NCBI GenBank assembly: GCA_022539475.1
Contig: VCMS01000050.1
Location: 62,001-126,000, forward strand
Direction of reading: 5' to 3'
Source: Gracilaria domingensis
Taxonomy: Eukaryota; Rhodophyta; Florideophyceae; Gracilariales; Gracilariaceae
Length of the DNA: 64,000 nt
The notes under the pieces are model-generated. The model was not told where the DNA came from and did no database searches. It saw only the letters and a list, made by a program, of their open reading frames with translations. The translations under genes were made by a program, and so were the position numbers. Each line of letters starts with the position of its first letter. The first letter of the stretch is position 1. This document shows, in pieces, positions 3,634-53,948 of this stretch.

Positions 3634-4146
3634 TTAGTTGTTGGGCGTACCATTCGGAATAGGATGATTCTCAAACTGTCCTGGAGGGTTAGGGAAGAGA
3701 ACCATATCAGAACGCGGTTCAAACGTTATGGAAAGGTCAGTAATATCTCCAACGTCCTCGATGTGTAGAATAGCACTTTCACTTGTATCCAAGAATGTAT
3801 CTCCGGGATCCGGCGGGAAGTGACCAAACTGAGATACCAGGTAAAAGAATAGGAATAAAACGAACTCTTCATGAATATCTTCAAGAGTGCCATCTTCATA
3901 AGCTATGAATAGCTTTCTTAGCATGATCGCATTCTCTGGGGTCAGAAATGGTCCTCGAACTTGCAGAGAGGCAAAGCATATATGACATGAGGCCCATGCA
4001 AGACGAAATCTTTCGAAAAGTTCATCGGTAATATCATCAAACCAGGTTAGCATCCACCGTCCGCCGAGAACTAAACGGCTGTAGAACTGACGTGCATTGT
4101 CGAGCTGCAGATTGTTCGCGATGTTCGGCTGTCCGTTGTTCGTCAT
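3634..4146 (-). CDS. Unknown ORF between chromodomain and 3' LTR of Gypsy-C
   Basis: An uninterrupted 170-codon frame from the first ATG at 4146; the frame is open to 4173 with a GTG. It lies on the same strand as gag-pol, starting 36 bp after the pol stop and ending about 20 bp before the polypurine tract. That is where env-like or other accessory genes sit in some LTR elements. The protein is acidic and rich in Phe, Leu and Trp, with a mid-protein stretch (FVLFLFFYLVSQF) that is hydrophobic but flanked by acidic residues. I see no signal peptide or known motif. It is intact while pol beside it is riddled with lesions. The tail is Pro/Asn-rich. Function unknown. Confidence 0.5.
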   Translation of the reverse strand: MTNNGQPNIANNLQLDNARQFYSRLVLGGRWMLTWFDDITDELFERFRLAWASCHICFASLQVRGPFLTPENAIMLRKLFIAYEDGTLEDIHEEFVLFLFFYLVSQFGHFPPDPGDTFLDTSESAILHIEDVGDITDLSITFEPRSDMVLFPNPPGQFENHPIPNGTPNN

Positions 4147-4181
4147 TGTTCGTGATGGCTGGCTACTCCGCACAGATATGT

Positions 4182-4607
4182 TCAGAGGTCGTGGCTCCTT
4201 TTATACTGCTCTAGGAGGTGATGACAGTTCTGGAGTTCGGAGTCAGGGAGCCACATGTTTTCGTGATCGGAATAGCCAAGCCATTTGACAAGGTATTCTG
4301 ACTTTCGTTTCCGTTTTCGATGATTAAGAATTGCTTATACTTCATATTCTTCTGTTCCGTCAGATAGTTCGATAGCTGCGGGCTTTGGCTCGGATTTCCT
4401 CATGATAGTGTCCTCGTAGTATCTTATGAGTAATTGACAGTGAAACACATCATGTATTTTTCCTTGCTTCATGACAGGTCCTATATCAAGTCGAAAGGTA
4501 ACTGGGCTCACTTGTTCAGAGATTATGAATGGACCACAGTACTTGATTCCCAACTTGTTTCGTGGGCCTGTTTCGTCCATCTTGAGCTTTTTAGTTGAAA
4601 GCATGAC
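4182..4607 (-). pseudogene. Gypsy-C integrase C-terminal region and chromodomain
   Basis: 4335-4604 encodes an integrase C-terminal module of the GPY/F kind, with the core GIKYCGPF, VTFRLDI and a closing HDVFHCQLL. A single in-frame TAA, at a position normally Glu, separates it from a chromodomain (about 4182-4335). The chromodomain shows an EYEV-stop-AILNHR start, the YLVKWLGY core and a final NMWLP...LLEQY helix. Chromodomains at the integrase C-terminus guide chromovirus insertion to marked chromatin. Apart from the one nonsense codon this segment reads cleanly, ending with a stop at 4182. Confidence 0.8.
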
Positions 4608-5640
4608 TTGGTCACTAACGTCTAAGTCGCAAGGCGTTCTTTTCTGATTCTAATACGTTTCAGAGTACTTGTTTATCTTGGTGATTTGGTTTCCTGCAAG
4701 CTTAACAGCCTCCGAGATACTTGTCAAAAAATCAGAAGCAGCTTGATTCTGGGAAGTAATTATATCCATTGGTAAAACGCGTGGTTCTTCCCCATATGTG
4801 AGAAAGAAGGGAGTAAATGACGTGATAGAACTCACCGAAGAGTTGTAAGCAACTTCAAATTGAATAAGATGCTTGTCCCAATTATTCTGTCTGTAATTGA
4901 CAAAACATCAGATCATTTCTTCGATCTTCTTATTCGTTACTTCGGTTTGGCCATCAGTCTGTGTGTGGTACGCTGATGATGGCTTCAACTCTTTGCCAAG
5001 TGATCGGAATACTTCCTTCCAGAACTTACTCATAAATATCGAATCTCTATCGGATACTATGGCATCGGAAAGTCCATGATGACGATAAATATTTTCGAGA
5101 TATAGCTGAGCTGTGTCGACAGCCGTAACATTCTTAGTTGTGGGTATGATACGTATAAGTTTCGAAAGGCGATCAACTACGACGTAAATGGCACTCTGTC
5201 CAGACTTGGTGCGTGGAAGTGGGGAAATGAAATCCATTGTGATCTGAGACCACTTCTTCAATGGAGGTTCTAAGGATTGCATATATCCATGTGGCTTCTT
5301 GGTAATTGGCTTCGTCTCTTGACACCTCTGGCATGTTTTCGTGTAGGTGTATACGTCTTTTCCGAGGGTCTTCCAAAAGTATGATTTCCAAATTCTTCTT
5401 AATGTCTTCTTAAATGCCATATGTCCTGACGAAGGGAGATAATGATTTTCAAATAAAATCTTAGTTCTGATTTCTCCACTCGGTACACACAGCTTATTCT
5501 TGAAGTAGAGAATATTTCATTTTCGTTCAATGGGGAGTTCAGGGTTGTTGTAAGCAGCAAAAAATTCGTTCTGATTCTTGTATCCTTCAGTGAATGCGCA
5601 CATATCCTTCTTAGATATTTCACCAATAAGAGATAAAGAG
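4608..5640 (-). pseudogene. Gypsy-C integrase, decayed
   Basis: The core is at 4908-5420. It shows a zinc-binding remnant CQRCQE, then WSQITMDFISPLP (first catalytic Asp), IVSDRDSIF (second Asp) and HTQTDGQTEVTNK (catalytic Glu). All three D,D,E residues are still present. 4650-4835 continues with the SFTPFFLTYGEEPR block that follows the core in Ty3/Gypsy integrases. Stops and frame changes at about 4640, 4900 and 5400-5520 break the protein, and the His-Cys domain upstream is only partly readable. Integrase would insert the cDNA into host DNA. Confidence 0.8.
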
Positions 5641-6310
5641 TTCAACTTGCTGGTTCTAGACATTGCTTCATCTAGTAGAGAGAGGTTACTAGCAAGCGGA
5701 TCTTCAGGATATCTCGAGAGAGCATCTGCAACTATGTTGGATTTTCCTTTGATTCGTTCAAAAGTGAAATCAAACTCAACGATCGTTTCGAGCCATCTTA
5801 CTTGACGTTGGGAAAGGTTTGGCTGTGTTTGCAGATAATTCAGTGGAAAATGATCTATACGCACTTTGAGCGTTGGCCATGTAAGTAGACTCTCCAAACT
5901 CTTAACGTGTCTAAAACTGCAAGAAGTTCTCGCTCGTGGGCGGCGTAGCGTTGCTCGGCTGGATTCAAGGTTCTTGAATGAAATGCAACAGGTCGGGCAA
6001 TACCGTTCTCTACTTGTTTCAATACTGCTCCTAGATCATACTGAGATGCGTTCGTGGTTACGATCATAGGCAGTTTTGGGTCAAAAGGACGGAGCAAAGG
6101 TGTACTCGAAACTGCTTCTTTCATATTTATGAAGGCGTTTTCTTGGTCCACTCCCCACTTGAATGGGTTCTTTTCACACAGAGCTGTTAGTGGTTTTGAT
6201 ATTTCGGAGCAGTTCTTAATAAAACGTCGGTGGTAATTAACAAGTCCAAGAAAAGTTTGAACGTCGGTCTTATTCTTCGGTGTTTCCCAATTTGTAATGG
6301 CTTTCACTTT
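5641..6310 (-). pseudogene. Gypsy-C RNase H domain, decayed
   Basis: 5855-6307 starts with the RT-RNase H connection (TFLGLVNYHRRFIKNC) and continues with ENAFINMKEAV, then MIVTTNASQYDLGAVL and the HSRTLNPAEQRY...ERELLAV block. The family signature is T-D-A-S; here it is T-N-A-S, so the first catalytic Asp has become Asn. 5517-5897 in another frame continues with DHFPLNYLQTQ and ends in NIVADALSRYP, the usual end of Ty3/Gypsy RNase H. One frame change and the Asp loss argue against activity. Confidence 0.8.
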
Positions 6311-6990
6311 TTGTTTCTCTACTGATATGCCGTCTGGTGTAACAAATGCCCGAGGTATTCAACTTCCTTCTTCAGAAATTCGCACTTTGAAATCTTCCCA
6401 TACAGCTTATGTGCGCGAAGTTGGTCGAATACTTTTCTAATGTGTTCCAAGTGCTCCTTAAAAATTTTTCTGTAAATCAGAATGTCTTCAAGGTACACTA
6501 GAACAAATTTATCCAAGTGATCTTTCAGTACATTGTTCATTAAGCTCATAAACATTGCGGGTGCGTTTGTGAGACCAAACGGTAAGACAAGAAACTCAAA
6601 GTGACCATACCTGGTTCTGAATGCAGTCAATGGAATGGAGGTATCCGAGAGTCTAATTTGGGGTAACCCCACATTAAATAGATTTTCGAAAATACTTTTG
6701 CGACACGAAGTTGCTCAAAAATATCATCAATCCTTGGAATAGGGTACCTGTTTTTGATGGTCAACTTATTGAGGTCTCGGTAATCAAGGCAAAGTCTTAG
6801 GCTTCCATCCTTCTTGGCTGCTAATAGAAGAGGTGCACCCCAAGGGCTTGAACTAGGTCGAATAAAACCTTGTTCCAAAAGTTCATTGAGTTGCTTCTTT
6901 AGCTCTTTCAACTCTTTATCTGACATTCGATATACGCTTTTCTTCTGAGGTGTTGCTTCAGGGGATATCTCAATATGAAAATCTTGTTCT
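6311..6990 (-). pseudogene. Gypsy-C reverse transcriptase, decayed
   Basis: Reads [34 protein letters not shown] and [11 protein letters not shown], then motif A as [10 protein letters not shown]. The invariant motif-A Asp is Tyr here (codon at 6678-6680). After a frame change, 6319-6672 continues with FLVLPFGLTNAPAMF (motif B) and motif C as VYLEDILIY at 6484-6495, where the family has YxDD. So one catalytic Asp is lost and another is Glu. The N-terminal part (6627-6926) and the remainder are in different frames. Confidence 0.85.
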
Positions 6991-8161
6991 CAGTGAGGGG
7001 GTAATTCTTTTCGTAATTTCTCTGAAAATAGGTCCTTGTATTCTTCAGCTAGTTCTTTGAGTTCATGATCATTCGCTGGTTCATAGGTTTCTTCTTTTGA
7101 AGGCCGAAGTGCTACAACATATACAGGTAGCTTCTTTCGAACTGACTTCTTGATTGTGTTCACAGAAATTAACTTCTCGTTGTTCTTAATGTGTGCCTTG
7201 ATGAAAATGGTTCTGGAGTTGTGAAAAAAAGAAATTTCATTGGTTCGGTGGTTGATATAGGGATTATATTCATATAGCCAGTCATTTCCTAAAATGACGT
7301 CATATCCGCATAATGCACATATCGCGAAGCGTTTCTTTTCTCGTAGTTCTTCAATCTGGATATCTACTCCATCTTCTCGGGTTTCTTGGAGCACAGTAAT
7401 GGAGCCGTTGGTCATTTTGGCTTCATACCAAGTGTCAATGGTTGGGACCTTCATTCTCTTGCATATGGCTCTGGACAGATAGCCCAGAGAGATGAATTGA
7501 TGTCCGGATGGTATCCTCCAGATAACCCATATTAGAATTATGAGACCTGAAGATGTCCATTTGATCTCATTAAGATGTCCATATGATATACGTAAATGAT
7601 GCTCAGATGATGCGTGAAGTATAACCAAATGATAACCGCCCGATATATATATGATGTAGGTAGAGATGTCCATTGGATTTTGTGATATCCAAGTGATGCA
7701 CTGTAGATTTCCTTACATCCATGGGACATATCTTTGTGCATCATATGAATATATTTGGAATAGGTTTTTACATTCAAAGGACATGTAAAGGATTTCAATT
7801 AGGCACATCCAAGGGGGTAGCATAGCATATTATTCGGATATCCTGGATGCGCAGAAGATATCTGATTGATATCCCATAGATGTCCCAAATTTTCATCCGA
7901 TTGACATCCATTGCGCATCACTTTATCTCACAGGGTAACTGATTTCGGAACCTTTTTCGAACACAGCCGTACATTTGCTGCCATTGATGAATACATGTGC
8001 AAGGAGTAACCAGAAGGGGTTTCAAATGGTGACGCTATACGTGAGGTAAGAAGTTTATGTCTTCCATTACTTGATATTTTTTTCTGGGGTACAATGGTTA
8101 TCTGCAGATTCAATGGGTACGTGAGTTGCTGGCTTAATCAATGGTTTTGTTTCAATGGAAT
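6991..8161 (-). pseudogene. Gypsy-C protease region, split by a MITE
   Basis: From right to left, 7936-8161 carries the N-terminal side of a retropepsin: VFINGSKCTAVF followed by EKGSEIS, where the family has Asp-Thr/Ser-Gly. The catalytic triplet is therefore lost. MITE copy 2 (7483-7935) follows directly. The frame resumes at 7482 with YLSRAICKRMKV, runs through a flap-like stretch, and ends with VILGNDWL, the usual ILG.DWL protease C-terminal motif. About 7000-7200 links to RT. Removing the MITE and one TA rejoins the frame as Ile-Ser-Tyr-Leu-Ser. Confidence 0.75.
7483..7935 (-). mobile_element. MITE copy 2, inserted in Gypsy-C protease
   Basis: 453 bp, related to 1092-1546 (inverted) and 29045-29494 (same orientation). 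Read on the plus strand it starts (G)CCCAGAGAGATGAATTGAT and ends CATCACTTTATCTCACAGGG. The ends pair imperfectly over about 20 bp. TA stands on both sides (agaTA|G...GGG|TAact), and the interrupted protease frame confirms that one TA was present before insertion. A TA duplication points to a Tc1/mariner-like source transposase, which is not present in the window. Confidence 0.8.
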
Positions 8162-10308: not shown

Positions 10309-10681
10309 TGTTAGAACACTGGATCGGTGGTTGAGGACTTGGGTCGATAGTTGAGAACGTGAACGATGGTGACTCCCGAAGAGAAGTCGGGCTGTCGACC
10401 AGGGTTTATATGGAGAATAGGACCTTCGAAAATAAGGTCGCTCACGCAGATGTCTAGAATATCCCTCAAACTAACGTGTCTATGAGTACTGGCCCTTGGG
10501 TTGGAATTAGTAGAAACTGTGCGTGGAAATCGACAGTGGAGTCTTCTAGAAGCTTCTAGAAGTTCCTGAAACGTGTCCAACTGGAGAGGTTCCAGCAAGG
10601 CAACAAACTATGAAGTCAGTCATGACGTCAACTGAGAAAGCAAACATCACATGTGACATATCTTCGTAATATTATGACAAC
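10309..10681 (-). repeat. Gypsy-C 5' LTR, part 1 (left of nested element)
   Basis: Matches the left two thirds of the LTR at 3065-3598. It stops at ACAAC, the target site used by Gypsy-B. The rest of this LTR continues at 21776. Confidence 0.85.
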
Positions 10682-11621
10682 TGTAGTGCAAACCCGGGGA
10701 CGGAAGAGGAACTCAAGGCGTTCGACTCCTTGCTCCTTGAAGGAGGTATACCCAGGGAATGAGCGCTCCGTGCACGGAGAATGGGGTGTAAGACCGCTCG
10801 TGCCTCGGGATATACCTCGGAGGTTGATGGGGAACAGGCTAGGTGAAGATCCGGAAACGGAGACGACCGTGGTGGACCGCACCAGCGGAGAGTGGAAACC
10901 CTAAGCAAAAAGGAAAAAAGAGGGAAAACCCAAATGAAACCCCCGGCGGGGCGTGCGAAAAGCGGCAACAGACCCGGCAGAGGGTGACGGAGACGTGTAT
11001 TCGCGGCAAAGATCTCTATACGGAGTTGGTACTTTTACCACTTGTGGTTGAGCAGGTATCTGCACAATGAAAGGTGTCCGAAGACGGAATTAGTCCCAGG
11101 TCAATGGCTACAAATGATCAGAATTACCTGAATGATCACGAGGGATGGCGCTAGAACGTATCATACGCGGTGACTCTCCGGGAGGAGTGGTGCACTTCGC
11201 GTAGGCGAAACTAGTCCAGAGCTGAACCCGGTTACCCTTTACTGAAGGTGGAGGTGACCGCGAGGTCACCTCCTATACCGTAATCGGTATATTAGTTAAA
11301 CTAAATTAAATAATCTAGTGCACACTTGTGCAAAGCCACAAACGTGGTGTACGTGACCAGCCAGCGTCAGCGGCGAGTAAATAATTCAACTATATAAACA
11401 ATTCCGCTGTGAATAGACCCAAATCAGACCACGTGTACCCACGACCACTCAATACCACGTGCCACACTATGGCCAGTCCAGCAGACATTCCGACATCCAC
11501 TCAACTCAGATTATCCCAGTTTTGGGCCAAGTTTCATACTTTTCTTTCCAAGGATCAAACCTCGACGCACGAGTTATGAGCATCATCAGTGCTGATACCG
11601 CGCTTCCGCGTTTTCTCTACA
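10682..11621 (-). repeat. Gypsy-B 3' LTR
   Basis: 940 bp, nearly identical to 20836-21775. It contains a perfect 10-bp hairpin at 11250-11273 (see separate entry) next to an AT-rich stretch. Confidence 0.9.
11250..11273 (-). promoter_or_regulatory. LTR hairpin with TCGC loop (Gypsy-B)
   Basis: On the sense (minus) strand: GGAGGTGACC, TCGC, GGTCACCTCC, a perfect 10-bp stem. An AT-rich, promoter-like block lies upstream and CAGTAAAG a few bases downstream. The same arrangement with another stem sequence is found in Gypsy-A. If transcription starts just after the AT-rich block, the hairpin would lie at the 5' end of the genomic RNA. The other LTR copy (21404-21427) has one unpaired position. 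Confidence 0.6.
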
Positions 11622-11679: not shown

Positions 11680-11690
11680 GAGTATAAATA
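11680..11690 (+). promoter_or_regulatory. TATA-like box for the antisense gene of Gypsy-B
   Basis: AGTATAAATAC lies just inside the 3' LTR border on the plus strand, about 150 bp before the conserved antisense coding block. Gypsy-A has GATATAAG at the matching place. The antisense gene would thus have its own promoter, independent of the LTR. Transcription start not determined. Confidence 0.45.
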
Positions 11691-11839
11691 CGTAAGCTGC
11701 GATGAGTCTTACCGACACCCCGGTACCTCGTCGCAACGAGCCTCACGGTTCTGCCGTAGGTTCTCCCGCAGTCACAGTGCGCTCCGACGACTCGGCTTAC
11801 CCAGACTCTTCTCAGATCGTTTCCGCGATGAATCCCTAA

Positions 11840-13522
11840 CAGGATAGTGACCAGCCTTCCAAGCATGGGGCGTCGAGCAACCCGACTCTCTCTGTTACCG
11901 CGACTGGGTATCTCGGCGACTTCGCCACAGCTCCTCTGTTACAGAGTCAAAGTCACACTCCGACACCGAATCCGGTCGACGTAGCTGCGTGGAACTCGGA
12001 GCATGCCGTGCCATTGCCAGCTACTCCAGGTGTCTGGATTGCGCGCGAGTCACTCTTGACACAGGATCCGAAAACGGACGGAAGTTGGACGTACTTCAGA
12101 GCTCCCTGGTTCCATCCGACTGCAGTACGCAACGTTGCATTACTCGATGCTGATAACGAGAACGGTTTGCTGCCTGGCGGCCTTCCTCGCGCCATGGTCG
12201 ACTCCTGTGATTGGAGGAACCGCGTGGCGGTGCCGACTCATCTTATCTCACGGCAGAGATGCGGTCGTCAATACGCGACGTTGGACTAAGCCCGAGCGGC
12301 AATTGCGCGGCTCGCGTACTTCCGTAAGGAGCGGGCCTCTTTTCCAGAGCTGATTACACCGTCGTACGGTTTCGACTTATCTCGCTTCCAAACGTACGGA
12401 GAAATTCAGTATGGCGCGAACCTTGCGAAGTTCTCAGCCTCAGCTGCCTTCCCTCAGTAAATGCCATCCGACATCCTCCTGTTTCACAGGCCTATCATTC
12501 GAGCGGAATTTCGCCATCTGCGACGTCCTTCTGGAGATGGGTCGTTCTTTTACAGGCTGCGGAATGAGCGCAAGCGAAGGTCCCGGTTCGGGTATCTGGT
12601 TCCATATCAGAACATCGAGGTTGAACGGTTGCGCCCGACGGCGTTAGCGGGGCGATTCCCGTCCCTTCCAGCGTGTTGGAGCATGTACGAAGTCCCTCGC
12701 GGTTGTTTCGCGGAACTCCCCGCCTGTATCTCGTACATGGGCTCGCGCATGCTTGCGAATCCCAACTCAGGGTATTGGATTCTTTTCATCGCTGAATGGG
12801 CGGGTCGCGTTGCCGTGTTCATGCTTTAGAAAGCCTATGATCAACACCGTGTTTGGTACATCCCGCCGAAGCTGCGGCTCTTCCTGAAGACGCTGGATCT
12901 CCATACCGCTCTGGGTTCAGAAGACAACGTTCTCGAGCTCGATTACCTCCTCGATCTCATCGAGAAGATCAATTGGGGTCCAGTTTCTCCGGAAAACGTC
13001 CCACGCGGGAGTAGGGCATCTCATGATCGTTCACCTAGGCGCAGGCATCCGGAAGCCGGGATTTTTGTCTATTACGACCCGTTGGAGGGTGTCGTGGTGT
13101 CACGCGATCAAGCGCATGCTCTGCGACAAATTTCTCGGGTTGTCCCGGAGGGTCACCCGGTTGGGTTCATGTTTTCCGATGATTACTATCCCTCAGCCAA
13201 CGAGGACGATCCAATGGTGGATGATACGGTTGAGAACCAGGCGCTGATCGGTCAGCCGTATGGGACGGTAGCCAATCCAGAAGCTGGAGCGGGCAATTTG
13301 CCTGTGGCCCCCACGGGTTGGGGTGTAGACCCTTCCCAGGGAAACATCGATCTTCGGGCCATCGCGATGCGTAATCAGCTCCTGAACTTCGGAGTACCGG
13401 TCCCACCGGGCATGTTTGAACTCGGCCAGTTGATGGTGCTGGGTTCGCAGACATTTACGAGTCCTTCTCAAGGTGGTCCGTCGAACACGGGGGGCGCGGG
13501 ACCCTCGACGGGTTTACCGTGA
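11840..13522 (+). pseudogene. Antisense accessory gene of Gypsy-B (conserved with Gypsy-A)
   Basis: About 560 codons in one unbroken frame register on the strand opposite gag-pol, interrupted only by TAA at 12287, TAA at 12458 and TAG at 12827. It aligns along its length with the Gypsy-A antisense gene. Shared blocks include RAPWFHPTAV / LAPWFHPTAV, CDWRNRVAVP / WDWRTRIAIP, ELITPSYGF / QFLITPGMD, YGEIQYG / RGEISYC, RPIIRAEFRHL / RPILRAEFRYL, FGYLVPYQN / FGYFAPYQN, ILFIAEWAGR / SVFISE-stop-AVR, KAYDQHR / EAYDQCR and DDPMVDDTVEN / GDPMVDNQPEN. The second half of the C-terminal region is less conserved. A TAA at 11837 precedes the block, and no ATG follows until well inside it. It is convergent with pol. 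No known domain recognised; function unknown. Confidence 0.7.
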
Positions 13523-20817: not shown

Positions 20818-20833
20818 TTATATCGGAAGACCA
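20818..20833 (-). other. Gypsy-B primer-binding site
   Basis: On the minus strand, two bases after the LTR end (...TTGCACTACA), the sequence TGGTCTTCCGATATAA begins. Gypsy-A has TGGTCTCCCGAAG at the same place, so both would use a tRNA ending TCGGRAGACCA. Confidence 0.65.
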
Positions 20834-20835
20834 CT

Positions 20836-21775
20836 TGTAGTGCAAACCCGGGGACGGGAGAGACACTCAAGGCGTTCGACTCCTTGCTCCCTGAGGGAGG
20901 TATACCCAGGGAATGAGCGCTCCGTGCACGGAGAATGAGGTGTAAGACCGCTCGTGCCTCGGGATATACCTCGGAGGTTGATGGGGAACAGGCTAGGTGA
21001 AGATCCGGAAACGGAGACGACCGTGGTGGGCCGCACCAGCGGACAGTGGAAACCCTAAGCAAAAAGGAAAAAAGAGGGAAAACCCAAATGAAACCCCCGG
21101 CGGGGCGTGCGAAAAGCGGCAACAGACCCGGCAGAGGGTGACGGAGACGTGTATTCGCGGCAAAGATCTCTATACGGAGTAGGTACTTTTACCACTTGTG
21201 GTTGAGCAGGTATCTGCACAATGAAAGGTGTCCGAAGACGGAATTAGCCCCAGGTCAATGGCTACAAATGATCAGAATTACCTGAATGATCACGAGGGAT
21301 GGCGCTAGAATGTACCATACGCGGTGACTCTCCGGGAGGAGTGGTGCACTTCGCGTAGGCGAAACTAGTCCAGAGCTGAACCCGGTTACCCTTTACTAAA
21401 GGTGGAGGTGGCCGCGAGGTCACCTCCTATACCGTAACCGGTATATTAGTTAAACTAAATTAAATAATCTAGTGCACACTTGTGCAAAGCCACAAACGTG
21501 GTGTACGTGACCAGCCCGCGTCAGCGGCCAGTAAATAATTCGACTCTATAAACAATTCCGCTGTGAATAGACCCAAATCAGACCACGTGTACCCACGACC
21601 ACTCAATACCACGTGCCACACTATGGCCAGTCCAGCAGACATTTCGACATCCAGTCACCTCAAGTTATCCCAGTTTTGGGCCAAGTTTGATACTTTCTTT
21701 CCCTAAGATCAAACCTCGGCGCACGAGTTATGAGCATCATCAGTGCTGATAACGCGCTTCCGCGCTCGCTCTACA
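20836..21775 (-). repeat. Gypsy-B 5' LTR
   Basis: 940 bp, with the same borders as 10682-11621. It differs from it at scattered single bases, including one in the hairpin stem (21404-21427), consistent with age. Confidence 0.9.
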
Positions 21776-29044: not shown

Positions 29045-29494
29045 CGCAGAGAGGTGAATTGATGACCGGATGATATCCCCCAGATAACCCATAATAGAAT
29101 TACGAACCCTGAAGATGTCCATATGATCTCTTTAAGATGTCCATATGATATACGTAAATGATGCGCAGATGATGCATGAAGTATATCCAAAGTATAAAAA
29201 TCTGATACGCATATTATGTACGAAGAGATGTCTTATGGATTTTGGGATGTACGAATGATGCACCTGGATTTACGGACATCCATTGGACATATCTTCGCGC
29301 ATCATATGAATATCTTTGGAATAGTTTTTGTACATCCAAAGGACATGTAAAGTGTATCAATTAGGCGCATCCAACGAGGTACCATGGCATATCATTTGGA
29401 TATCCTGGATGCGCAGAACATATCCGACTGACATCCCATAGATGTCCCAAAGTTTCATGCGATAGACATCCGTAGCGCATCACTTCTCACAGGG
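29045..29494 (-). mobile_element. MITE copy 3
   Basis: 450 bp, same orientation as copy 2. Begins CGCAGAGAGGTGAATTGATG and ends CTTCTCACAGGG. Flanked by TA on both sides (agTA|CGC...GGG|TAag), like copy 2. Interior as in the other copies. Confidence 0.75.
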
Positions 29495-33624: not shown

Positions 33625-36117
33625 ATGGTGATGGCCAAGCGAAACTATAAGGTGTACGCTGACCCTGGCTTGAGCCCCCAGTTTATGGTGCGTTACCTGA
33701 ATGTACTAGACACAGGTGCAGGTCCAAACGTCATCTTGGAGTCCCTCCTCACACCGCAATTGCGGGAACGTATCCGCCGCAGCATGCTTTCTGATGTCGC
33801 TGACGCGAATAACAACCCGTTAAAAACGGTGGGAAGAATCGACTTAGTCGTGCGTTTGGGAACTTTCGTGGTGAGGGTCGACTTCATCGTTTGTCGGTCA
33901 TTGGCTGCCCCAGTCATTTTGGGTTGCGATTACTGCGACAGGTTTGTCGATGCAATCAGGCCCCGCCTCAGGCGTGTAGAACTCGACGATGGTTCTTCGG
34001 TACCGATCGTTCGTCGTCCGCTGAAGCGGTCATCGCGGAAGCAAGTTCCACTCCCTGCTGCGCAGGTCCCGGCACCGGCGTCGCGCGAGTCTACCAAGCT
34101 CCGCGTCGCTTCGTCGATTCGCATTCGGCCTGAGTCCCAAGTAATGGTGTCAGTGAATTCCCGCCAGCACGGTCTTCGGGTTATTGAACCACTTACCTCG
34201 TTGTACGAGAACTGCCAACTCGCTGTTGCGAATGGTGTTGTGCAGATCACACCGGATACTCCGTTTCGGATACTCGTTGCCGATCTTGGCAGCAACCCCC
34301 AGTATCTGGTGAAGAACCAAGTCATTGGGCCTGTGACACTGCACCCACTCGCGATGGTTCCGACGAAGATGACAGCTGCCGATGTCCTCGGACTAGTTAC
34401 CTCCGAAGAGGACGTCCCTCCATCTGAGGAGGGGGAGGGAGCTGCAGTTCCTGCTGTTTTCGCGGGTACCAATACCGTCGTAACGGAGAAGAAACTGACT
34501 GACTCAGACACAAACCCTGTGTCAGGGACAGAAGAGCGTAAGCCCACGAGCTACGACAAGGTTGACCCCTTGAAGACGCTCGAGAAACTTGATCTCGGTC
34601 ATGTACCGGAGTCGCACCGTGAACATCTAAGAGACATGATACGGGAGTTTACCCCAATGTGGGATGGCTCTCTTGGAGAGATAAATGCAACGGAACACCG
34701 TATCGATTTGTTACCGAACACGCGTCCGGTTTCACAACCCCCTTATAGGGCAGGACCAAAAGCTCGGCAAGAAGAACAGTTCCATGGGGACAAGATGCTC
34801 CGCGCAGGTGTCATCGAACACGCTCAATCGCCGTGGGCATCCCCAATGGTACTGGGTCTCAAGGCCGACGGAACCTGGAGGTTCTGTGTCGACTATCGCC
34901 GGCTCAATGCCGTGACGGTAAGAGAAGCTTACCCAATCCCTCGTATGGACGAGTGTATCGATTCGCTCGGTGACGCTACCGTGTTCACGGCATTGGATGC
35001 CAATTGGGAATACTGGCAAGTCCCCGTCAGGGAGGAAGACCGCTATAAGAGTGCGTTCGTGTGCTACTCGGGCTCCTACCTCTTCAACCGGGTGCCTTTT
35101 GGCCTAACCAACGCGCCCGCTACTTTTCAGCGTGCCATCGACATCTTGTTGAGCCGCTTCAAGTGGCGGACCTGTCTCGTCTACCTTGAAGACATCATCG
35201 TGTTTTCCAGTAATCTGGACGATCATCTCACCCATATCAGGAACGTGATGGCCACTCTGCGTGATGCAGGAATAACACTCAAGTTGAGGAAGTGTGAAAT
35301 CTTCACCGACACCATCAAGTATCTTGGACACATCATCCGTCCAGGACGGCTGACGATCGAGGAAGCTCGTGTCAAGTCACTCGCCAAGTCGAAGGAACCG
35401 CGAACCCAAACGGAATTACACTCCTTCCTAGGGCTGGTCAACGTCTACAGACGGTTTGTACGGAACTTTTCGGATCCCTTTAACGCTCTCATGCGAAAGG
35501 TTCAGCCACCGAAACTGGACCCCTTCACGCCCGCACAAGCGGAAGTATTCAACGCCTTGAAGAAGGGTGTTACATCAGCACCTATTCTATCGTTACCAAA
35601 ACCGAGATTGCCGTTCTCCGTGGACACGGACTCGAGCTACTACCAAGTAGACTGTGCGCTGTTACAAACCACTCTTGAGGGAGAATGGAAACCCATAGGG
35701 TACTGGTCACGTTCGCTGAACGTTCATGAACGGAACAACTCCTTTCGGAAAAAGAGTGCCTTGCAGTCGTATGGGCATTATCCACCCTCCGTCTCTATCT
35801 AATAGGTGTGCACTTCACCGTGTAAACGAATCATTACTCGTTGTGGTGGTTGATGAATATCTCTGACCCATCAGGCCGCCTTATGCGGTGGAGGCTGCGC
35901 CTAGCGGAATTCGACTTCGACGTCGTATACAGAAAAGGGACCCTGAACACCCAGGCGGACGCGCTGTTACGCTTACCCACGAATGGGGAAACTCTGGTCG
36001 TGGAGGTCGATGATATTCCTTGCTTCGTCGTCGACAATGATGAACCGGAACCCCTGGAGTGGCGGCTCGACGACTGGCTAGATGACTGGGACGATATGGA
36101 CGCTGAGTTTGATTAAC
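33625..36117 (+). pseudogene. pol: Gypsy-A protease, reverse transcriptase and RNase H, copy 1
   Basis: 725 open codons from 33625. Protease has LDTGAGPNVILESLL with the catalytic DTG, and VILGCDYCDRF. RT begins HRIDLLPNTRPVSQPPYRAG and shows WRFCVDYRRLNAVTV, FTALDANWEYWQV (motif A kept) and VPFGLTNAPATFQ. Motif C reads VYLEDIIVF (35182-35193), with Glu where the family has the first Asp of YxDD. The connection (SFLGLVNVYRRFV) and RNase H (SVDTDSSYYQVDCALLQ, GYWSRSLNVHERN) follow. A frame change at about 35745, plus a TAA in the original frame near 35823, disable RNase H. Its end, with DVVYRKGTLNTQADALLRL, is in 35841-36116. Confidence 0.85.
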
Positions 36118-36164: not shown

Positions 36165-37100
36165 TTGGTACCAGTATCACCGGAAGAAATGATCCGAGGA
36201 CAACATGGAGACCCGTTCTGCATCACGATCTGTGCCCGACTTAACGGTGGAGCCACCTTCCCAGTCGAGGTCAAAAACATCGGTTACCTTGTAAAGACAG
36301 TCGAGTCACACCCACAAGTTGTGGTACCACACCCCTTGCAGACGAGGATCCTACACTTTTCGCATTACGCAAAGTTAGGTGGTCACGCAGGTGGAAGAAA
36401 GTTGTACCTCACCTCGAGGAGAGATTTCTACTGGCCCGCCATGGCGGTGGATTGTTACGCTACGGTACGCTTCTGTGCCGATTGCGCGAGAAATCGCGTG
36501 AAACTCCGAAAGAATTCGAAGAAAGTGAAACTATTCCCTGCTAGGGTGTCGCTTGAATTGGTGGCAATCGGTATTCTCGGACCATTTATTACCACTCGGA
36601 GAGGAAATAAGTTCCTTCTCGTTATCAGGATCGGTTCTTGAAACTGTTTCTGACAGTACCTCTAAAGAGGATCACCACGTTCACAGTCGCGCAGGCGTTC
36701 GGCACGCACTGGATCTTCGTGTACGGTCCTCCTGTGGAGTTGTTATCCGATAACGGAAACCAATTCGCATCCCGGTTCTCCCAGGATGTATGTCGCATCA
36801 TGGACGGGGAGAACCTCTTCACGAGCACTTACCATCCCCAATGTAATGGGCAAGTTGAAGGGTACAACCGTACGATGCTGGCATATCTTCCTTCTTACGT
36901 TGCTGACCACCCAAAAACCTGGGACGTATACACCGACGCGTGAACCTTTGCGTACAACACGCAGGTACACAGGACTACTGGTGTTTCCCCATTCGAACTG
37001 GTTTTGTCACGGACACCCCCGCCATTGGGGTTAGGATCGCAAGCTACCTTGTGCAATTTTTCATCTGTGGGTGATTATCGTTAACAATGGAAGGCTTCGC
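36165..37100 (+). pseudogene. Gypsy-A integrase, copy 1
   Basis: 36165-36641 contains the zinc-binding domain (LHFSHYAKLGGHAGGRKLYL ... CADCARNR) and the start of the core, LELVAIGILGPF. The Gly codon at 36570-36572 stands where Gypsy-B and the family have the first catalytic Asp. A frame change follows at about 36630, and 36638-36943 continues with LFLTVPLKRITTFTVAQAFG, VELLSDNGNQFASRF (second Asp) and YHPQCNGQVEGYNRTM (Glu). A TGA at 36941 interrupts TFAYNTQVHRTTGVSPF. The Asp loss by itself should abolish strand transfer. Confidence 0.85.
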
Positions 37101-37132: not shown

Positions 37133-38613
37133 ATGGCGAAATCCCAAGCAGCTTACAAGCGTGATTTTGATGCTCGCTTGCGAGGAAGAACCCCCGAACC
37201 ACTTACTGCGGGCAACCATGTCTTCGTACGGAAGGAATACTACAACTCTGAGAAGGGCAAACGTCATAAGCTCTCGCCTGTGGTGGATGGACCTTATAAG
37301 GTAATCTCGGTCGCACAGGCAACTGTGGTGGTCGAGAGCGCTGACGCGCATGAACGGATCTCGTGCGACCGCGTGGTATTGACCCCTCCACCCTCGTCTG
37401 AGGTTGCCCCGACTGGTACAGAGCCCATGTCTACGGAGTCAGAAACGCCGGTAACACCGGAAACAAATGTGGTGACAAGACCCTCCGTCCGGCCCCACCC
37501 CCACCGAGGCCTTACAGACCTCCCGATAGAGTCGGCCCCTCCGACTGTGTCCGAAAATGATCGCCAACATGGCACCCCGTTTCTGTCCCAGCGCTGGGTT
37601 CACCTCCCCGCGATGCGGGACATTAAAGTACTCACCACGCCGCTCCATTTAAGGAGGGGGAGGAGGGTATCAGGTCTGCTGAGAGTTCCTTGCCGACGTC
37701 GCGTCGTGAGGACAACCGTGAAGCACGGACTGTACGGAGCTCTCTGGATGTTCCGGCCTGTGGGCGGGCTTCGCCTCCGCAACGCATGCTCACTCGCCAG
37801 ACACACAGCTGCGTTGCCGGGAAGTCTACACTGTCGCCAGATAAGAACACTCACGCAGAAGCGGATTCGGTTAAGTCAACAGAGCCTCGTGGCCTACCAG
37901 CCGCGCTGGGCGAAGCGAAGTCGAAGGATGCCGTCGGCACTAAGCCGAAGACGTCGGAAGGAAGCCCCACTGGGGTAAGCGCAGCGACATCGCGGCCCAC
38001 CGCGCAACGCGACGCAGAACAACCAGAAAGCTTGGGAAATACTGCGGAGCAGGCACGAGTTGAGGGAAGAAAAGAACCGAGTGACTCGGCAGAAACCAGG
38101 AGTACAGCCGTGGGAATGCCGAACACTCCGGGAAGAGTTCACGTCATGGACGGTACAGCACCAAATACTGGAAAGAAAATGTCCGCGCAAGTGCAGCCGC
38201 ACGCCGAGATCGCGAGATCGGAGCCCGCCGGCGGTGCCGATAACCCCATTAACCCGGAAGTAACCGTTCAGAACGGAAATTCGAGCAACGAATCTCAAGG
38301 GCCAACTGCGCAGCCGCTGGAGGACACCTGTAGCAGGGCGGCAGTTCTCCCGAGGGAGCTTGACAGCCAACCGTCGCTACGATCACGTGCACGCACGGTT
38401 GTAAAGCCACCCGAGGTGGAGCCTCCCGCCGCAAGCGGTGAGCACGCAGCTCCGCCAACACCGCCGAAGCGGAAGGACACACGCCGGCTGGCGGTACGCA
38501 ACGACTTTCCGAACGCTCCTCCCAGGAGGAAACTTGCGACGCAAAGCCAGGGGCGCGCTGTTACCCCGTCACGGGAACAGTTACCCCGCAAGGGTTGTCG
38601 ACCGATGAAATAA
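37133..38613 (+). pseudogene. Gypsy-A integrase tail and low-complexity linker, copy 1
   Basis: 37133-37978 starts with the integrase tail: RDFDARLRGRTPEPLTAGNH, VFVRKEYYNSEKGKRHKLSP and DGPYKVISVAQATVVV (GPY/F-like). It continues into Pro/Thr-rich sequence. 37690-38613, in another frame and 307 codons long, is a highly polar Ala/Pro/Ser/Glu/Arg-rich sequence without domains, most likely an unstructured linker to the chromodomain. The real path between frames is unclear because of indels. In Gypsy-B the same interval is more decayed. Confidence 0.6.
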
Positions 38614-38849
38614 CCATAACACGGCAAGGCCGGCAGGTATACGTTCAAGAGTACATCGTCGACCGAATAATTGGCCACACCTGGGACCAGGATGGCATTT
38701 TACAATACCACGTCCGCTGGTACGGCTATGGACCATCGTGGAATACTGACGAACCCATCGAGCACCTACCGCGCTCGAAGGCCCTACAGTACCACCGCAA
38801 CGCGGGAACGGCCACACCAGCGACGCTGGACAACGCCCAAGTGGGATAA
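38595..38849 (+). pseudogene. Gypsy-A chromodomain, copy 1
   Basis: 84 codons, opening with TTG at 38595 in a frame different from the linker. Core VYVQEYIVDRIIGHTWDQDG, ILQYHVRWYGYGPSW, DEPIEHLPRSKALQYHRN. The strand V-R-W-Y-G-Y and the EP.EHL turn are typical, and it aligns with Gypsy-B 13941-14192. It ends pol. Confidence 0.8.
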
Positions 38850-39239: not shown

Positions 39240-40907
39240 TTAGCCATCGCCCTCATCCTGAGGAGGCATACCGCCGAGGCGTTGAGCTAAGGAGTCTGCT
39301 ATAGCGGTGACGTCGCCAGAGGCTGCGCTTGCACCTAAGCCCGCGCCGCGGAGGAAGCGAGCGATAATCGCACCTTCGTTGACACCCGAAGGCGGGAGAT
39401 GAGCTGCAGCAGCCGCAGCCGCAGGAGCCGGCTGAGCCGGAATCGGAACCGGTGTGGGTACTGGAATGGGATCCGGAGCGGGGGCGACGAAGTCAGCTGC
39501 CGAGGCGGAGCCGACAACCGGAGCAGGGCCGGCGTTCTCCCCTGCAGGGGTTGCGTCAACTTCTTCGATCATCTCGACCTCGTCGCCTCCCGTGTTCTCG
39601 GGCTGATTGTCCACCATTGGATCTCCCCCGAGGCACTCTCGGTAATACTCATCAGAGTTCACGAACCCAGTTGGGTGATCGGCCGGCACGCGCCGGGGAG
39701 CAGAACGGAGCTCACCCGCTTCCTCACCGGTAATCTCCCGATAATCCCGCGGGTCGAAGAAGACAAAATCGCCTACGTGAGCGGTATTTCTCTCCAGACC
39801 TGGGCCGTAACCATCCGAGTTTGGGGAATCACCACGACCACTCTGAGACAGAGGCACCTGGGTCCAGTCGACACTATCGATATAATCGAGAAGGCTCAGC
39901 ACCTCGTCGTCGTTGGCGCGACCCCCGAGGTTGACTTCCAAGTCCAAATTTCTAATGGCCGCCCGCACGCCGGGAGGGATGAACCCCAGTCGACACTGGT
40001 CGTATGCCTCAGCGAGGGTAAATGCCTCGGTGCGGACAGCTCACTCGGAGATGAAAACCGACCACAACCCAGTTCTGGGATCTGTGAGCAGGTATGACCC
40101 TAAGTAGGTTAATACCGGGGGTAGCTCGATGTAGCACCCCCGGCACGCTTCGAGGTAACTACACCACTCTGGCAGAGGTACATACCGACCCTGTCGGTGC
40201 GCAGCCGCGATATGGCGGATCTTCACGTTCTGATACGGAGCGAAGTACCCAAATTGGGATCGAGACTGCCTCTCATGACGGATGAGGTTCTGAGGGACGT
40301 TAGACCGCGAACAGCGGGGGAGGTATCGAAACTCAGCCCGAAGAATCGGTCTTGTCCAGCACATAGCTTCCTGCCGTGCGACGGGCATTCCTGGCCAGGC
40401 GAAGGTTTCCAACTCCGCTAGGCGGTCGCAGTAACTAATTTCCCCGCGGGTGCGGTAAAACGCTACATGGTAGTCCATCCCTGGCGTGATCAGGAACTGG
40501 AAGGGCGCCCGGCCTTGCCGTTTGTAAGCCACCATGACAAAGTTGACATGGGCTTCTTCCCGGGATTTCCGGTTCTCTCGTGCAACCTGAAACACAGGAA
40601 TCGCGATGCGCGTACGCCAATCCCACGAAGTGGTCACCATTGCTGGGAGATCGCCTGGAAGGATGATGCGCTCGTCGCCATACTTAGTGATGAGGCTTTC
40701 GTTGAACACCGCAGTCGGGTGGAACCATGGCGCGAGCCGGAGACGTCTCGCATGTCGCTGGTTTGCCTGGTTGATCCCTACAAGATAGTTGAAGGACGGC
40801 CAGACCACACCTGGGTGAAACCCGAGAACGGGACCCGCGAGAGCGGCATGCTGTGCGGAGGATCCAGCGGCGTTGTTCGATTGCCACTCGGACGGGTCGG
40901 AGCCCTG
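39240..40907 (-). pseudogene. Antisense accessory gene of Gypsy-A, copy 1
   Basis: About 555 codons in one frame on the strand opposite gag-pol, between the chromodomain and the 3' LTR, with one TGA (40041-40043) where Gypsy-B has TGG (Trp in FIAEW). It aligns with 11840-13522 from the start (QGSDPSEW / QDSDQPSK) through LAPWFHPTAV, WDWRTRIAIP, LITPGMD, RPILRAEFRYL, SRSQFGYFAPYQN, CRGCYIELPPVLTYLGSYLL, EAYDQCR, VNSDEYY and DPMVDNQPEN. The C-terminal 100 residues are Pro/Ala-rich. A TAA at 40908 precedes the block, and no ATG follows it until the VTTSWDW region. The frame before the TAA is open from 41177. No known domain. Its conservation in register between diverged families indicates past selection on the protein. 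Confidence 0.75.
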
Positions 40908-41144
40908 TTAAGGGAGCAGTACGGAGCGGAATCCGGTGAAGCCCCCTTGGGGGAACGGTGGTTGGTTCGGAGGCTGGTTCGGTGGAACGCCACTCAGAGT
41001 GAGGTCTAGTTCCGGTGTCGGAGAAAAATTGACCGCAGGAGCGAGATCGCATTCGGTAATCTGAGGAGGGCTACCGCAGGAGCAGGGAGCACATCGTTGA
41101 CGGAAGAAGGAGAACAATATACGGGAGGACCGGGGAGCGCCGCA

Positions 41145-41152
41145 CTTATATC
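41145..41152 (-). promoter_or_regulatory. TATA-like box for the antisense gene of Gypsy-A
   Basis: The minus strand reads GAGATATAAGTGCGG about 60 bp inside the 3' LTR border, 240 bp before the conserved coding block. Position matches the TATAAATA in Gypsy-B. In copy 2 it lies at 51497-51504. Confidence 0.45.
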
Positions 41153-41213: not shown

Positions 41214-41953
41214 TGTAGTGCAACGCTCATCTATGAGGAATTTCGCTGGACTTTGTCATAATTCCCGTTCACAGGTTTGCCTAGTACACACCAGTATATG
41301 ACTAGTAGTAACTAGTGGATGCCATCGAGAAAGTTTGTACACGTGGCACAAGCTGGAGCTGATCGGAGGTTGGCCACTACACGTGGGCGTTTGCCGCAAT
41401 TAGTGGGATGTTTATTTAATATTATTTATTAATTTTAGTGAGGACACTACTTAGTGCGACGGCGTCGCCGCCGTCGCACCAGTAAAGTGCCCCAACCAGG
41501 GTGATCCGACTTCAAGGATCTTGGCTCTAGCCACTCTCGCCTTCGGCGGTGCACAACTTCTTATCGGAGGGACTCCCCGTTGTCACGGTGCGGCTATCCA
41601 CCCTGCTTCCCCGCAGAACCCAACTTTGGGAGTGTTTCACCTAGGTTGTTTGTGTTCGACCCTGTATAGGGAATACCCCGGCGATACGCCGTACCTCTCT
41701 TATCCCTCTCTCTTTTCCCCTCTATTTTCCTTTCCCCACTCTGTGGTTTCGTCCGTCTTTCGCGGCTGCTACACTCACGCGAGAGTCACCCTTCCCTACT
41801 CAACTCTCAACGCCCCGTCTTGACGGTCTGGCACCGGTCTTACACCCGGATAGTCGCGCCAGTCCCGAGAGGCTCTGTTCACTGGGTTGCCTTCAGTAGA
41901 GGAAGATCCCGAACATCTTCGTGGTCTTTCCTGCTTGCAGGCATTGCACTACA
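41214..41953 (+). repeat. Gypsy-A LTR 2 (shared by both copies)
   Basis: 740 bp; 3' LTR of copy 1 and 5' LTR of copy 2. It shares nearly all its variants with LTR 3 and not with LTR 1 (for example CGGTCTGGCACCGG against CGTTCTGGCCCCGG near the end). Confidence 0.9.
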
Positions 41954-49591: not shown

Positions 49592-51259
49592 TTAGCCATC
49601 GCCCTCATCCTGAGGAGGCATACCGCCGAGGCGTTGAGCTAAGGAGTCTGCTATAGCGGTGACGTCGCCAGAGGCTGCGCTTGCACCTAAGCCCGCGCCG
49701 CGGAGGAAGCGAGCGATAATCGCACCTTCGTTGACACCCGAAGGCGGGAGATGAGCTGCAGCAGCCGCAGCCGCAGGAGCCGGCTGAGCCGGAATCGGAA
49801 CCGGTGTGGGTACTGGAATGGGAACCGGAGCGGGGGCGACGAAGTCAGCTGCCGAGGCGGAGCCGACAACCGAAGCAGGGCCGGCGTTCTCCCCTGCAGG
49901 GGTTGCGTCAACTTCTTCGATCATCTCGACCTCGTCGCCTCCCGTGTTCTCGGGCTGATTGTCCACCATTGGATCTCCCCCGAGGCACTCTCGGTAATAC
50001 TCATCAGAGTTCACGAACCCAGTTGGGTGATCGGCCGGCACGCGCCGGGGAGCAGAACGGAGCTCACCCGCTTCCTCACCGGTAATCTCCCGATAATCCC
50101 GCGGGTCGAAGAAGACAAAATCGCCTACGTGAGCGGTATTTCTCTCCAGACCTGGGCCGTAACCATCCGAGTTTGGGGAATCACCACGACCACTCTGAGA
50201 CAGAGGCACCTGGGCCCAGTCGACACTATCGATATAATCGAGAAGGCTCAGCACCTCGTCGTCGTTGGCGCGACCCCCGAGGTTGACTTCCAAGTCCAAA
50301 TTTCTAATGGCCGCCCGCACGCCGGGAGGGATGAACCCCAGTCGACACTGGTCGTATGCCTCAGCGAGGGTAAATGCCTCGGTGCGGACAGCTCACTCGG
50401 AGATGAAAACCGACCACAACCCAGTTCTGGGATCTGTGAGCAGGTATGACCCTAAGTAGGTTAATACCGGGGGTAGCTCGATGTAGCACCCCCGGCACGC
50501 TTCGAGGTAACTACACCACTCTGGCAGAGGTACATACCGACCCTGTCGGTGCGCAGCCGCGATATGGCGGATCTTCACGTTCTGATACGGAGCGAAGTAC
50601 CCAAATTGGGATCGAGACTGCCTCTCATGACGGATGAGGTTCTGAGGGACGTTAGACCGCGAACAGCGGGGGAGGTATCGAAACTCAGCCCGAAGAATCG
50701 GTCTTGTCCAGCACATAGCTTCCTGCCGTGCGACGGGCATTCCTGGCCAGGCGAAGGTTTCCAACTCCGCTAGGCGGTCGCAGTAACTAATTTCCCCGCG
50801 GGTGCGGTAAAACGCTACATGGTAGTCCATCCCTGGCGTGATCAGGAACTGGAAGGGCGCCCGGCCTTGCCGTTTGTAAGCCACCATGACAAAGTTGACA
50901 TGGGCTTCTTCCCGGGATTTCCGGTTCTCTCGTGCAACCTGAAACACAGGAATCGCGATGCGCGTACGCCAATCCCACGAAGTGGTCACCATTGCTGGGA
51001 GATCGCCTGGAAGGATGATGCGCTCGTCGCCATACTTAGTGATGAGGCTTTCGTTGAACACCGCAGTCGGATGGAACCATGGCGCGAGCCGGAGACGTCT
51101 CGCATGTCGCTGGTTTGCCTGGTTGATCCCTACAAGATAGTTGAAGGACGGCCAGACCACACCTGGGTGAAACCCGAGAACGGGACCCGCGAGAGCGGCA
51201 TGCTGTGCGGAGGATCCAGCGGCGTTGTTCGATTGCCACTCGGACGGGTCGGAGCCCTG
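49592..51259 (-). pseudogene. Antisense accessory gene of Gypsy-A, copy 2
   Basis: Same frame, with the same TGA (50393-50395) and the same preceding TAA (51260) as copy 1. Differences: Thr to Ala in DWAQVPL, Pro to Ser in GPASVVG, Asp to Val in PAPVPIP. These fall mainly in the weakly conserved C-terminal region; the conserved blocks shared with Gypsy-B are unchanged. Confidence 0.75.
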
Positions 51260-51565
51260 TTAAGGGAGCAGTACGGAGCGGAATCCGGTGAAGCCCCCTT
51301 GGGGGAACGGTGGTTGGTTCGGAGGCTGGTTCGGTGGAACGCCACTCAGAGTGAGGTCTAGTTCCGGTGTCGGAGAAAAATTGACCGCAGGAGCGAGATC
51401 GCATTCGGTAATCTGAGGAGGGCTACCGCAGGAGCAGGGAGCACATCGTTGACGGAAGAAGGAGAACAATATACGGGAGGACCGGGGAGCGCCGCACTTA
51501 TATCTCTTTTGCCCGACGCCGTCCTGCACTCTTCGAGGTTTTACTGCTGCACAAGGAGGGGAAGA

Positions 51566-52991: not shown

Positions 52992-53948
52992 TGTAGAGCA
53001 AAACCCCAGCGATGGGACTATCTCTCAAAGCCTTCGAATCCTTGCCCTCTTCAAGAGGTGAACTCAGTGGTGAGCCTTCCAAACACGGATAACGCGAGTG
53101 TAAGAGCGCCCCTGGTACGGAATATACTTAAGGAGGTTGGGGAAGAACGGGTTTGCATCCGGCAGTCTGGCGACAAGAAACGAAGTGGGAGGAGAAAAGG
53201 GTACCGTACAGCGCTATAAGCTCTAGGTAGAAAGGGAAAAATGAAGGGAAAAACCAAGGAGAAACCCTCGGCGGGGCTTACGAGAAGCGGCAACATAACC
53301 TACCACGAGTGACAGGTGTTTTGTATTACGCCCACACGGCAGGGGTCTCTATACAGAGTCGGGAGTTCTACCACTTGTAGTTAAGCAGATATCTGCATTT
53401 CAAAAATGTCCGAAGACGGAACAAGCCCGAGGGCGAGAGCCACAAACGATAGGAATTGCCTGAATGATCCCGAGGGATGAAGCTAGTCAGTACCGTACGC
53501 ACTAACAGTCCTGAGGGAGTGGTGCACTTCGCGCAGGCGAATCTAGTTCAGAGCCGAACTCGGTTTCCCTTTACTGAAGGTGGAGGTGACCTCCCATTCA
53601 CCTCTTGTACCGTAAAGGATAAATTAGTTAAACTAAATTAAATAATCTAGTGCACGCCTGAGCAGGTCCATACACGTATTTCACGTGACAACCAGCGGCA
53701 GCGCCAGTAAAATATCCGACAAATATTTCGGGACATGTGTAAACACACCCATTCCTCCACACGCGTACACGCGAGCAGCCCTAGTCCTTGCCACGTCATG
53801 GACGTCCGTAAAGTGCCATGCCTCACCAGCACCGAAAAGCATCCATTCATGGGCCAATGCTCAAACATTCCGAGTACCAGGAATCGTCCTTACCAAGGAC
53901 TTATGATTACCATTCCCTTTACTTCAGACGAGCACGTTTTGCTCTACA
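52992..53948 (-). repeat. Solo LTR related to Gypsy-B
   Basis: 957 bp with ends TGTAGAGCAAAA...TTTTGCTCTACA. It is similar along its length to the Gypsy-B LTR (for example TTAGTTAAACTAAATTAAAT and TCTAGTGCAC). The hairpin position (53583-53604) has a 7-bp stem GAGGTGA/TCACCTC with an 8-base loop, and CAGTAAAGGG follows on the sense strand. No internal region adjoins it. No clear 5-bp duplication: TAGGT on the left, GAAGG on the right. Confidence 0.7.

Follow-up and report, generated by a model that had tools for sequence, protein, structure and literature searches.

An antisense gene under purifying selection in chromodomain-bearing Gypsy elements of red algae

Introduction

Two Gypsy retroelements of the red alga Gracilaria domingensis, termed here Gypsy-A and Gypsy-B, each contain a long reading frame that runs opposite to gag-pol. 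Is this frame a gene of the element, and if so, what could its product do? Antisense genes in Gypsy elements have been described from plants and from a fungus, none with a settled function in the account consulted (PMC7264820). The window, by which we mean the whole stretch of 64,000 nucleotides that was analysed, lies on a contig of 382,288 bases (C50) in a genome of 77.9 Mb, and its relevant features are collected in Table 1.

Table 1. Coordinates of Gypsy-A and Gypsy-B features in the window
Feature	Position	Strand	Remarks
LTR of Gypsy-B adjoining its antisense gene	10676..11621	-	partner about 20829-21775, 96% identical
TATA-like box TATAAATA, Gypsy-B	11683..11690	+	matrix match from nt 61 inside LTR edge
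Antisense gene of Gypsy-B	11828..13522	+	stops at 11837, 12287, 12458, 12827
Protease/RT/RNase H frame of Gypsy-A	33625..35802	+	RVT_1 E 9.2e-31
Integrase zinc-binding part of Gypsy-A	36165..36641	+	Integrase_H2C2 E 5.9e-12
Chromodomain of Gypsy-A	38652..38780	+	PF00385 E 2.6e-9, above cut-off
Antisense gene, Gypsy-A copy 1, damaged	39240..40997	-	start codon lost; in-frame stops 40908-40910 and 40041-40043
Open frame facing antisense gene	39399..40097	+	plus-strand frames over gene without selection of their own
TATA-like box, Gypsy-A copy 1	41145..41150	-	matrix match from nt 63 inside 3' LTR edge
Middle LTR of Gypsy-A array	41214..41953	+	740 nt; other LTRs start at 30862 and 51566
Antisense gene, Gypsy-A copy 2	49592..51349	-	same array, same two stops; upper end via 10352 offset
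TATA-like box, Gypsy-A copy 2	51497..51502	-	via 10352 offset

Results

Damaged copies in the window

In Gypsy-A, three LTRs and two interiors follow one another head to tail (30862-52305), repeating every 10352 nt. The repeats differ by 36 mismatches over about 11 kb; such an array may be a product of unequal exchange or an assembly duplicate. An earlier note on the window had described an antisense frame at 39240-40907 (-) with a single internal TGA at 40041-40043, and the frame is present as described. A second antisense frame, at 49592-51259 (-), is identical to the first at 551 of 555 residues, and the two cannot be counted as independent because they are interiors of one three-LTR array and both stops are common to both. 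The length of 555-560 residues then given for the protein proved to be that of a fragment, as an in-frame TAA (40908-40910) directly precedes the frame and A no longer has the likely start codon. The Trp that the TGA was said to replace is invariant across 12 aligned sequences (A outside the set), but the site is occupied by Phe in P0009. The protein database entry for the window's antisense protein, FGB62_50g12, has a gene model that skips the TGA-bearing stretch. The frame at 39240-40907 (-) is thus what is left, in damaged form, of a genuine antisense gene that belongs to Gypsy elements with a chromodomain.

The relative in Gypsy-B, on the plus strand at about 11828-13519, can be aligned with A across 387 query residues without a change of frame, at 39% identity (E 1e-73); the TAA, TAA and TAG attributed to it earlier all fall within this aligned part, and a further TAA is found near its start. 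Elsewhere the window contains a third, diverged Gypsy pol (4749-6983 (-), 28-36% identity to the A and B polyproteins), a segment at 53402-53689 that is 79% similar to part of the Gypsy-B LTR, and a dispersed repeat at 1092-1545, 7483-7935 and 29047-29485, the copies of which are 84-89% alike and occur in both orientations.

Family members and their host elements

With the last 266 residues as query, the genome yielded at least 146 matches, a lower bound obtained with 144 of 851 first-look candidates scored. Stop-free frames of exactly 651 codons (9) or 721 codons (22) make up 31 of the 146 among the matches listed. The loci studied, 33 extracted and eight from the genome search, are mostly best matches and thus a non-random sample; they include copies of the types designated C, D, B2 and E. 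Natural frames initiated by ATG comprise 644 codons in type C and 670-685 in type B2; that of the D copy L027 has 636.

That the gene runs against gag-pol and sits between pol and the 3' LTR had been proposed from the window, and it was confirmed with the genomic copies. When RT matches listed (131 of 2323 candidates scored) were paired with the 146 antisense matches listed, all 69 pairs with the gene at most 8 kb downstream of the RT had the two on opposite strands, at a distance of 3.44-4.01 kb in 67 pairs and of 4.4 and 6.0 kb in the others. In three more pairs the gene is upstream of the RT; one of these pairs has both on a single strand, and at least the pair in the window involves a neighbouring element. 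No downstream pair was assigned to 64 of the 131 RT and 77 of the 146 antisense matches, figures that carry little weight because they again refer to the matches listed. In L015, with pol closing at 3995 and the antisense frame at 4387, the two genes converge but do not overlap. RT, RNase H, integrase and a C-terminal chromodomain follow in order within one frame of this copy, the arrangement of chromovirus-type Ty3/Gypsy elements. The chromodomain (PF00385) scored above the Pfam cut-off in window A, L003, L015, L018 and L034, that is, in five of the five copies whose stretch was scanned in an open frame; a scan of the window frame 37690-38613 gave no chromodomain match because that frame stops before the domain. 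In Gracilariaceae, a clade of Ty3/Gypsy elements with a chromodomain has a second gene opposite gag-pol, in the interval between pol and the 3' LTR.

Selection on the antisense frame

Ratios of dN/dS were calculated by the Nei-Gojobori method from residue 60 onward. The window's own A/B pair gives 0.46 (95% 0.32-0.60) with dS near saturation, and for that reason the other genomic copies provide the stronger test. Between subfamilies the ratios range from 0.22 to 0.31, with upper 95% limits of 0.28-0.44: 0.22 for C/D (95% 0.17-0.28), 0.31 for C/A (0.23-0.44), 0.26 for D/A (0.20-0.33), 0.23 for B2/E (0.16-0.29) and 0.30 for C/B2 (0.19-0.39). Two pairs inside B2 gave 0.16 and 0.28. The two other frames of the same strand yielded 1.07-3.02 in eight comparisons and contain 8-25 stops, on which grounds a chance antisense frame was rejected. 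A plus-strand gene over the same stretch was likewise rejected, two of the opposite-strand frames standing at 0.89-3.60 and the third, at 0.30-0.47, mirroring wobble positions and interrupted by 17-25 stops per sequence. The earlier note had held the protein to be under selection. This view was upheld in the larger set, in which the ratios on the antisense strand are well below 1 rather than near it, and in which no overlapping plus-strand frame is better conserved than the antisense one. Comparisons of close copies gave a pooled ratio of 0.25 in B2 (28 pairs) and of 0.65 in type C (36 pairs), the latter as expected after insertion and by itself no evidence for selection; for pol, L015 against six other copies gave 0.15-0.89 in 13 aligned pieces of at least 150 residues. 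Overall, the ratios show that the antisense gene is under purifying selection.

These data also bear on the notion that an antisense RNA, either regulatory or feeding siRNA production, is what counts, with the open frame incidental. Convergent transcription would indeed yield double-stranded RNA, and non-coding antisense transcripts of retroelements are described in the source consulted (PMC7264820). However, the amino acids of just one frame are held by purifying selection, and many copies have long intact frames. This makes the notion very improbable, and the dN/dS ratios already largely refute a reading based on antisense RNA only.

Along the gene, C/D ratios are 0.81 at residues 1-56, 0.31 at 57-150, 0.10-0.17 at 151-450 and 0.27-0.31 in the rest, and the C/D changes within residues 1-56 are spread evenly over the codon positions (26, 27 and 30). 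The full 644-codon frame was rejected as the protein on this basis. Since the preceding C/D codons look neutral, the start was placed about 60 codons inside the longest C frame, probably at the Met at residue 60, and the N-terminus of P0009 resembles the peptide at this Met. The same start is less clear for B2, where an upstream one may be used: residues 1-56 give 0.45 in C/B2 and, on nine changes, 0.34 in one B2 pair. The proteins are likely to be about 585-630 residues long.

A TATA-like box at a fixed distance

The antisense strand was scanned inward from the LTR edge, within 140 nt, for matches to a TATA matrix, with one sequence for each of the families, which are related to one another. 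The best match starts at nucleotide 63 in C and window A, 61 in D, 62 in B2, 62 in E and 61 in window B, in spacers with an ungapped identity between families of 22-52%. None of 4000 rounds of dinucleotide shuffling placed all five best matches within 3 nt. The score of a single family was reached by 0.2% of shuffles for window B, 6.0% for C, 0.03% for D, 0.08% for B2 and 2.7% for E, those of C and E being modest. A TATA-like pattern is found at the corresponding place in 34 of the 34 locus rows whose LTR edge fits the pattern, a table restricted to such edges in which five rows duplicate another locus's place. In natural C copies, the position of the box at 41150-41145 is still covered by the longest open frame but precedes the codon at which translation probably starts. 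The claim that the gene has its own TATA-like box held up, five families sharing a spacing of 61-63 nt inward of the 3' LTR, and we infer, with good support, that the gene is transcribed independently from this box.

Exchange of the gene between element types

Comparison of L015 with other copies in 400-nt windows revealed a composite element. Along pol it shares 97-99% identity with the D copies L027 and L028 but 71-94% with the C copies L009, L013 and L016, its antisense gene is 94-98% identical to C and 61-83% to D, and two LTR windows are again closer to D (87-93%) than to C (69-86%). Diagnostic sites agree, with 467 of D and 3 of C before position 3950, 514 of C and 13 of D from 3950 to 6450, and 99 of D and 9 of C after 6450; the switch points lie at 3980-4146, just beyond the pol stop, and at 6476-6510, in U3. 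Typing was extended to 22 rows, of which 19 are genomic loci typed for both pol and gene. The combination of D-pol, C-gene and D-LTR occurs in eight of the 19 (L010, L011, L012, L014, L015, L020, L023, L025), C/C in another eight (L009, L013, L016, L018, L019, L021, L022, L024; L019 is only 89-90% identical to C, and L021 has no LTR match) and D/D in three (L027, L028, L039), and L017 and L026 combine a C-gene with a D-LTR, their pol being unreadable. We regard D-pol with C-gene as the recombinant form because window A and C agree in both modules (88% in pol, 89% in the gene). The antisense gene has thus been exchanged as a cassette together with its promoter and the PPT, and the rise of the recombinant form to at least eight copies suggests that a swapped antisense gene works with another pol.

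An exchange between families fits a trans-acting function, and a promoter outside the LTR could work while the LTR is silenced; both points would suit an anti-silencing protein directed against host methylation or small-RNA control. This is a narrower form of the explanation that we favor, that of an antisense accessory gene, and in the face of a protein with no link in sequence or fold to any known anti-silencing protein we consider it unlikely.

Relatives and possible origins

Protein searches, each covering about 5.8 billion proteins with about 8000 candidates scored, identified two relatives in Gracilariopsis chorda (P0003 and P0004, of 617 and 565 residues, annotated as hypothetical) and further database entries (P0002, P0005, P0007, P0008, P0009). 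BWQ96_03215 is an intact natural protein of G. chorda. Among the candidates scored, G. chorda was the only named species outside G. domingensis with relatives, and none were found among phages, viral contigs or prokaryotes, the last two searched by way of short peptide patterns. In a tree of 16 rows, nine from G. domingensis and some without a species label, the genus labels require three changes; with that proportion of unlabelled rows in mind, the tree points to several lineages of the family being older than the split of Gracilaria and Gracilariopsis. Identity to A drops in the same order for gene and RT, namely C, D, B2 and then window B.

Capture of a host gene, which may still serve a role taken from a cellular protein, is suggested by the layout: a gene in antisense that brings a TATA-like box along resembles a captured transcription unit. 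On the other hand, no homolog outside the elements was recognised among the candidates scored in these searches (surroundings were viewed in G. domingensis alone), and the tree places several lineages before the separation of the two genera, so that we hold a host origin to be improbable.

Properties of the predicted protein

The core of nine members contains 37-44 Arg, 0-11 Lys and 12-16 Trp, and the C-terminal part is acidic in eight of the nine and basic in P0008. That the protein has no recognised similarity to others, as noted earlier, is in keeping with a Pfam scan of the family frames, in which no family was matched apart from two sub-threshold matches in P0009; a PDB sequence search gave no match either. 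One of the former, to Ish1 (E 0.09), is the basis for a C-terminal helix pair recalling SAP/HeH motifs, which we do not claim. Structure prediction, proposed earlier as a check, was carried out with AlphaFold2 on 11 and 15 rows and gave no usable model or fold (mean pLDDT 35.5 and 40.3), and the best Foldseek match to the 15-row model had an E of 1.4.

The possibility of a structural protein, whether Env-like or a second, Gag- or capsid-like one, is raised by a position matching that of env in retroviruses and by a size that is about equal. It is nevertheless highly unlikely. For Env the strand is wrong, being antisense in 69 of 69 pairs among the matches listed, and in eight of nine members the mean hydropathy over 19 residues stays below 1.5 throughout (maxima 1.22-1.46; P0008 reaches 1.86). 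For Gag, the family profile compared with the window's 418-residue gag frame, a single gag sequence, gave an hhalign probability of 0.1%. Env and a second Gag were rejected on these three grounds.

Discussion

The explanation that best accommodates these observations, and which we consider probable as a whole, is that chromodomain elements of Gracilariaceae carry an antisense accessory gene read from its own TATA box. In this scheme, a box at a set distance of about 62 nt from the 3' LTR would direct transcription, and the product would have about 585-630 residues. Its N-terminus is rich in Pro and Ser; a core of ~350 residues follows, in which Arg and Trp are abundant and Lys is scarce, and the C-terminal part is acidic in most members. 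The protein might be a nuclear accessory factor that binds nucleic acids and acts in trans, either sustaining expression of the element or assisting the complex formed by its RNA or cDNA. This part of the proposal, which draws on analogy, is tentative and in our estimation has less in its favor than against it. Among known counterparts, GENE23 of Grande is reported to be nuclear (PMC7264820) and TRP28 is predicted to bind DNA (PMC11963269), to cite the portions of those reports consulted; in the red algal family, Pfam, PDB-sequence, AlphaFold2 and Foldseek analyses yielded no fold or homologous domain supporting nucleic-acid binding. A broader proposition is that a protein of new fold, a core promoter at a fixed distance from the PPT, and a cassette of gene, promoter, PPT and first part of U3 traded by recombination evolved independently in red algal chromodomain elements, which would suit a factor that acts in trans and perhaps counters silencing; we judge this to be only slightly less probable than its opposite.

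A search of the literature, with most subscription journals outside its coverage, retrieved no title or abstract describing this red algal gene. If an unrelated antisense gene is under selection in red algae, this would suggest that the gene layout arose more than once. In addition, the constant position of the TATA-like box and the swapping of the cassette make both an own promoter and trans action on other families concretely testable.

Position opposite gag-pol in many copies and conservation of the protein, the marks of an antisense additional ORF (aORF-3R), were both found here. Such antisense aORFs are known in plant Gypsy elements of the Tat/Retand group, including gene23 of Grande, RIRE2, and Retand with TRP28, according to the sections consulted (PMC7264820, PMC11963269). 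The red algal elements resemble them, as there described, in having a large gene opposite gag-pol, in the interval between pol and the 3' LTR, in most copies (PMC7264820, PMC11963269). In Grande, gene23 is reported to be transcribed from a promoter upstream of it (PMC7264820), the counterpart of which in red algae is a TATA-like box recognised by sequence alone. The two groups differ in that the red algal elements carry a chromodomain whereas Retand is described as a non-chromovirus (PMC7264820, PMC11963269), and in that the red algal proteins have no TRP28 match, Grande being compared by description and by the Pfam TRP28 model alone. The TRP28 domain (PF04195) had no Pfam match in the family frames scanned, and a whole-genome search for it gave no match, as was also the case in every control genome, so that this second negative carries no information. 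Set apart by this model and by the descriptions, the red algal protein is apparently unrelated to known antisense ORF proteins. A fixed TATA distance and cassette exchange are likewise absent from the Tat/Retand descriptions consulted (PMC7264820, PMC11963269). Among fungi, Boty of Botrytis cinerea is reported to carry the antisense gene brtn (PMC7264820, PMC8365987), a likeness in a Gypsy element that is drawn by description alone (PMC7264820). Retroviruses of the HTLV type, again likened by description alone, likewise have, at the 3' end of the element, an antisense gene with a promoter of its own; in the account consulted, however, the retroviral promoter is inside the 3' LTR (PMC7264820), whereas the red algal TATA-like box lies inside the element, adjoining the LTR.
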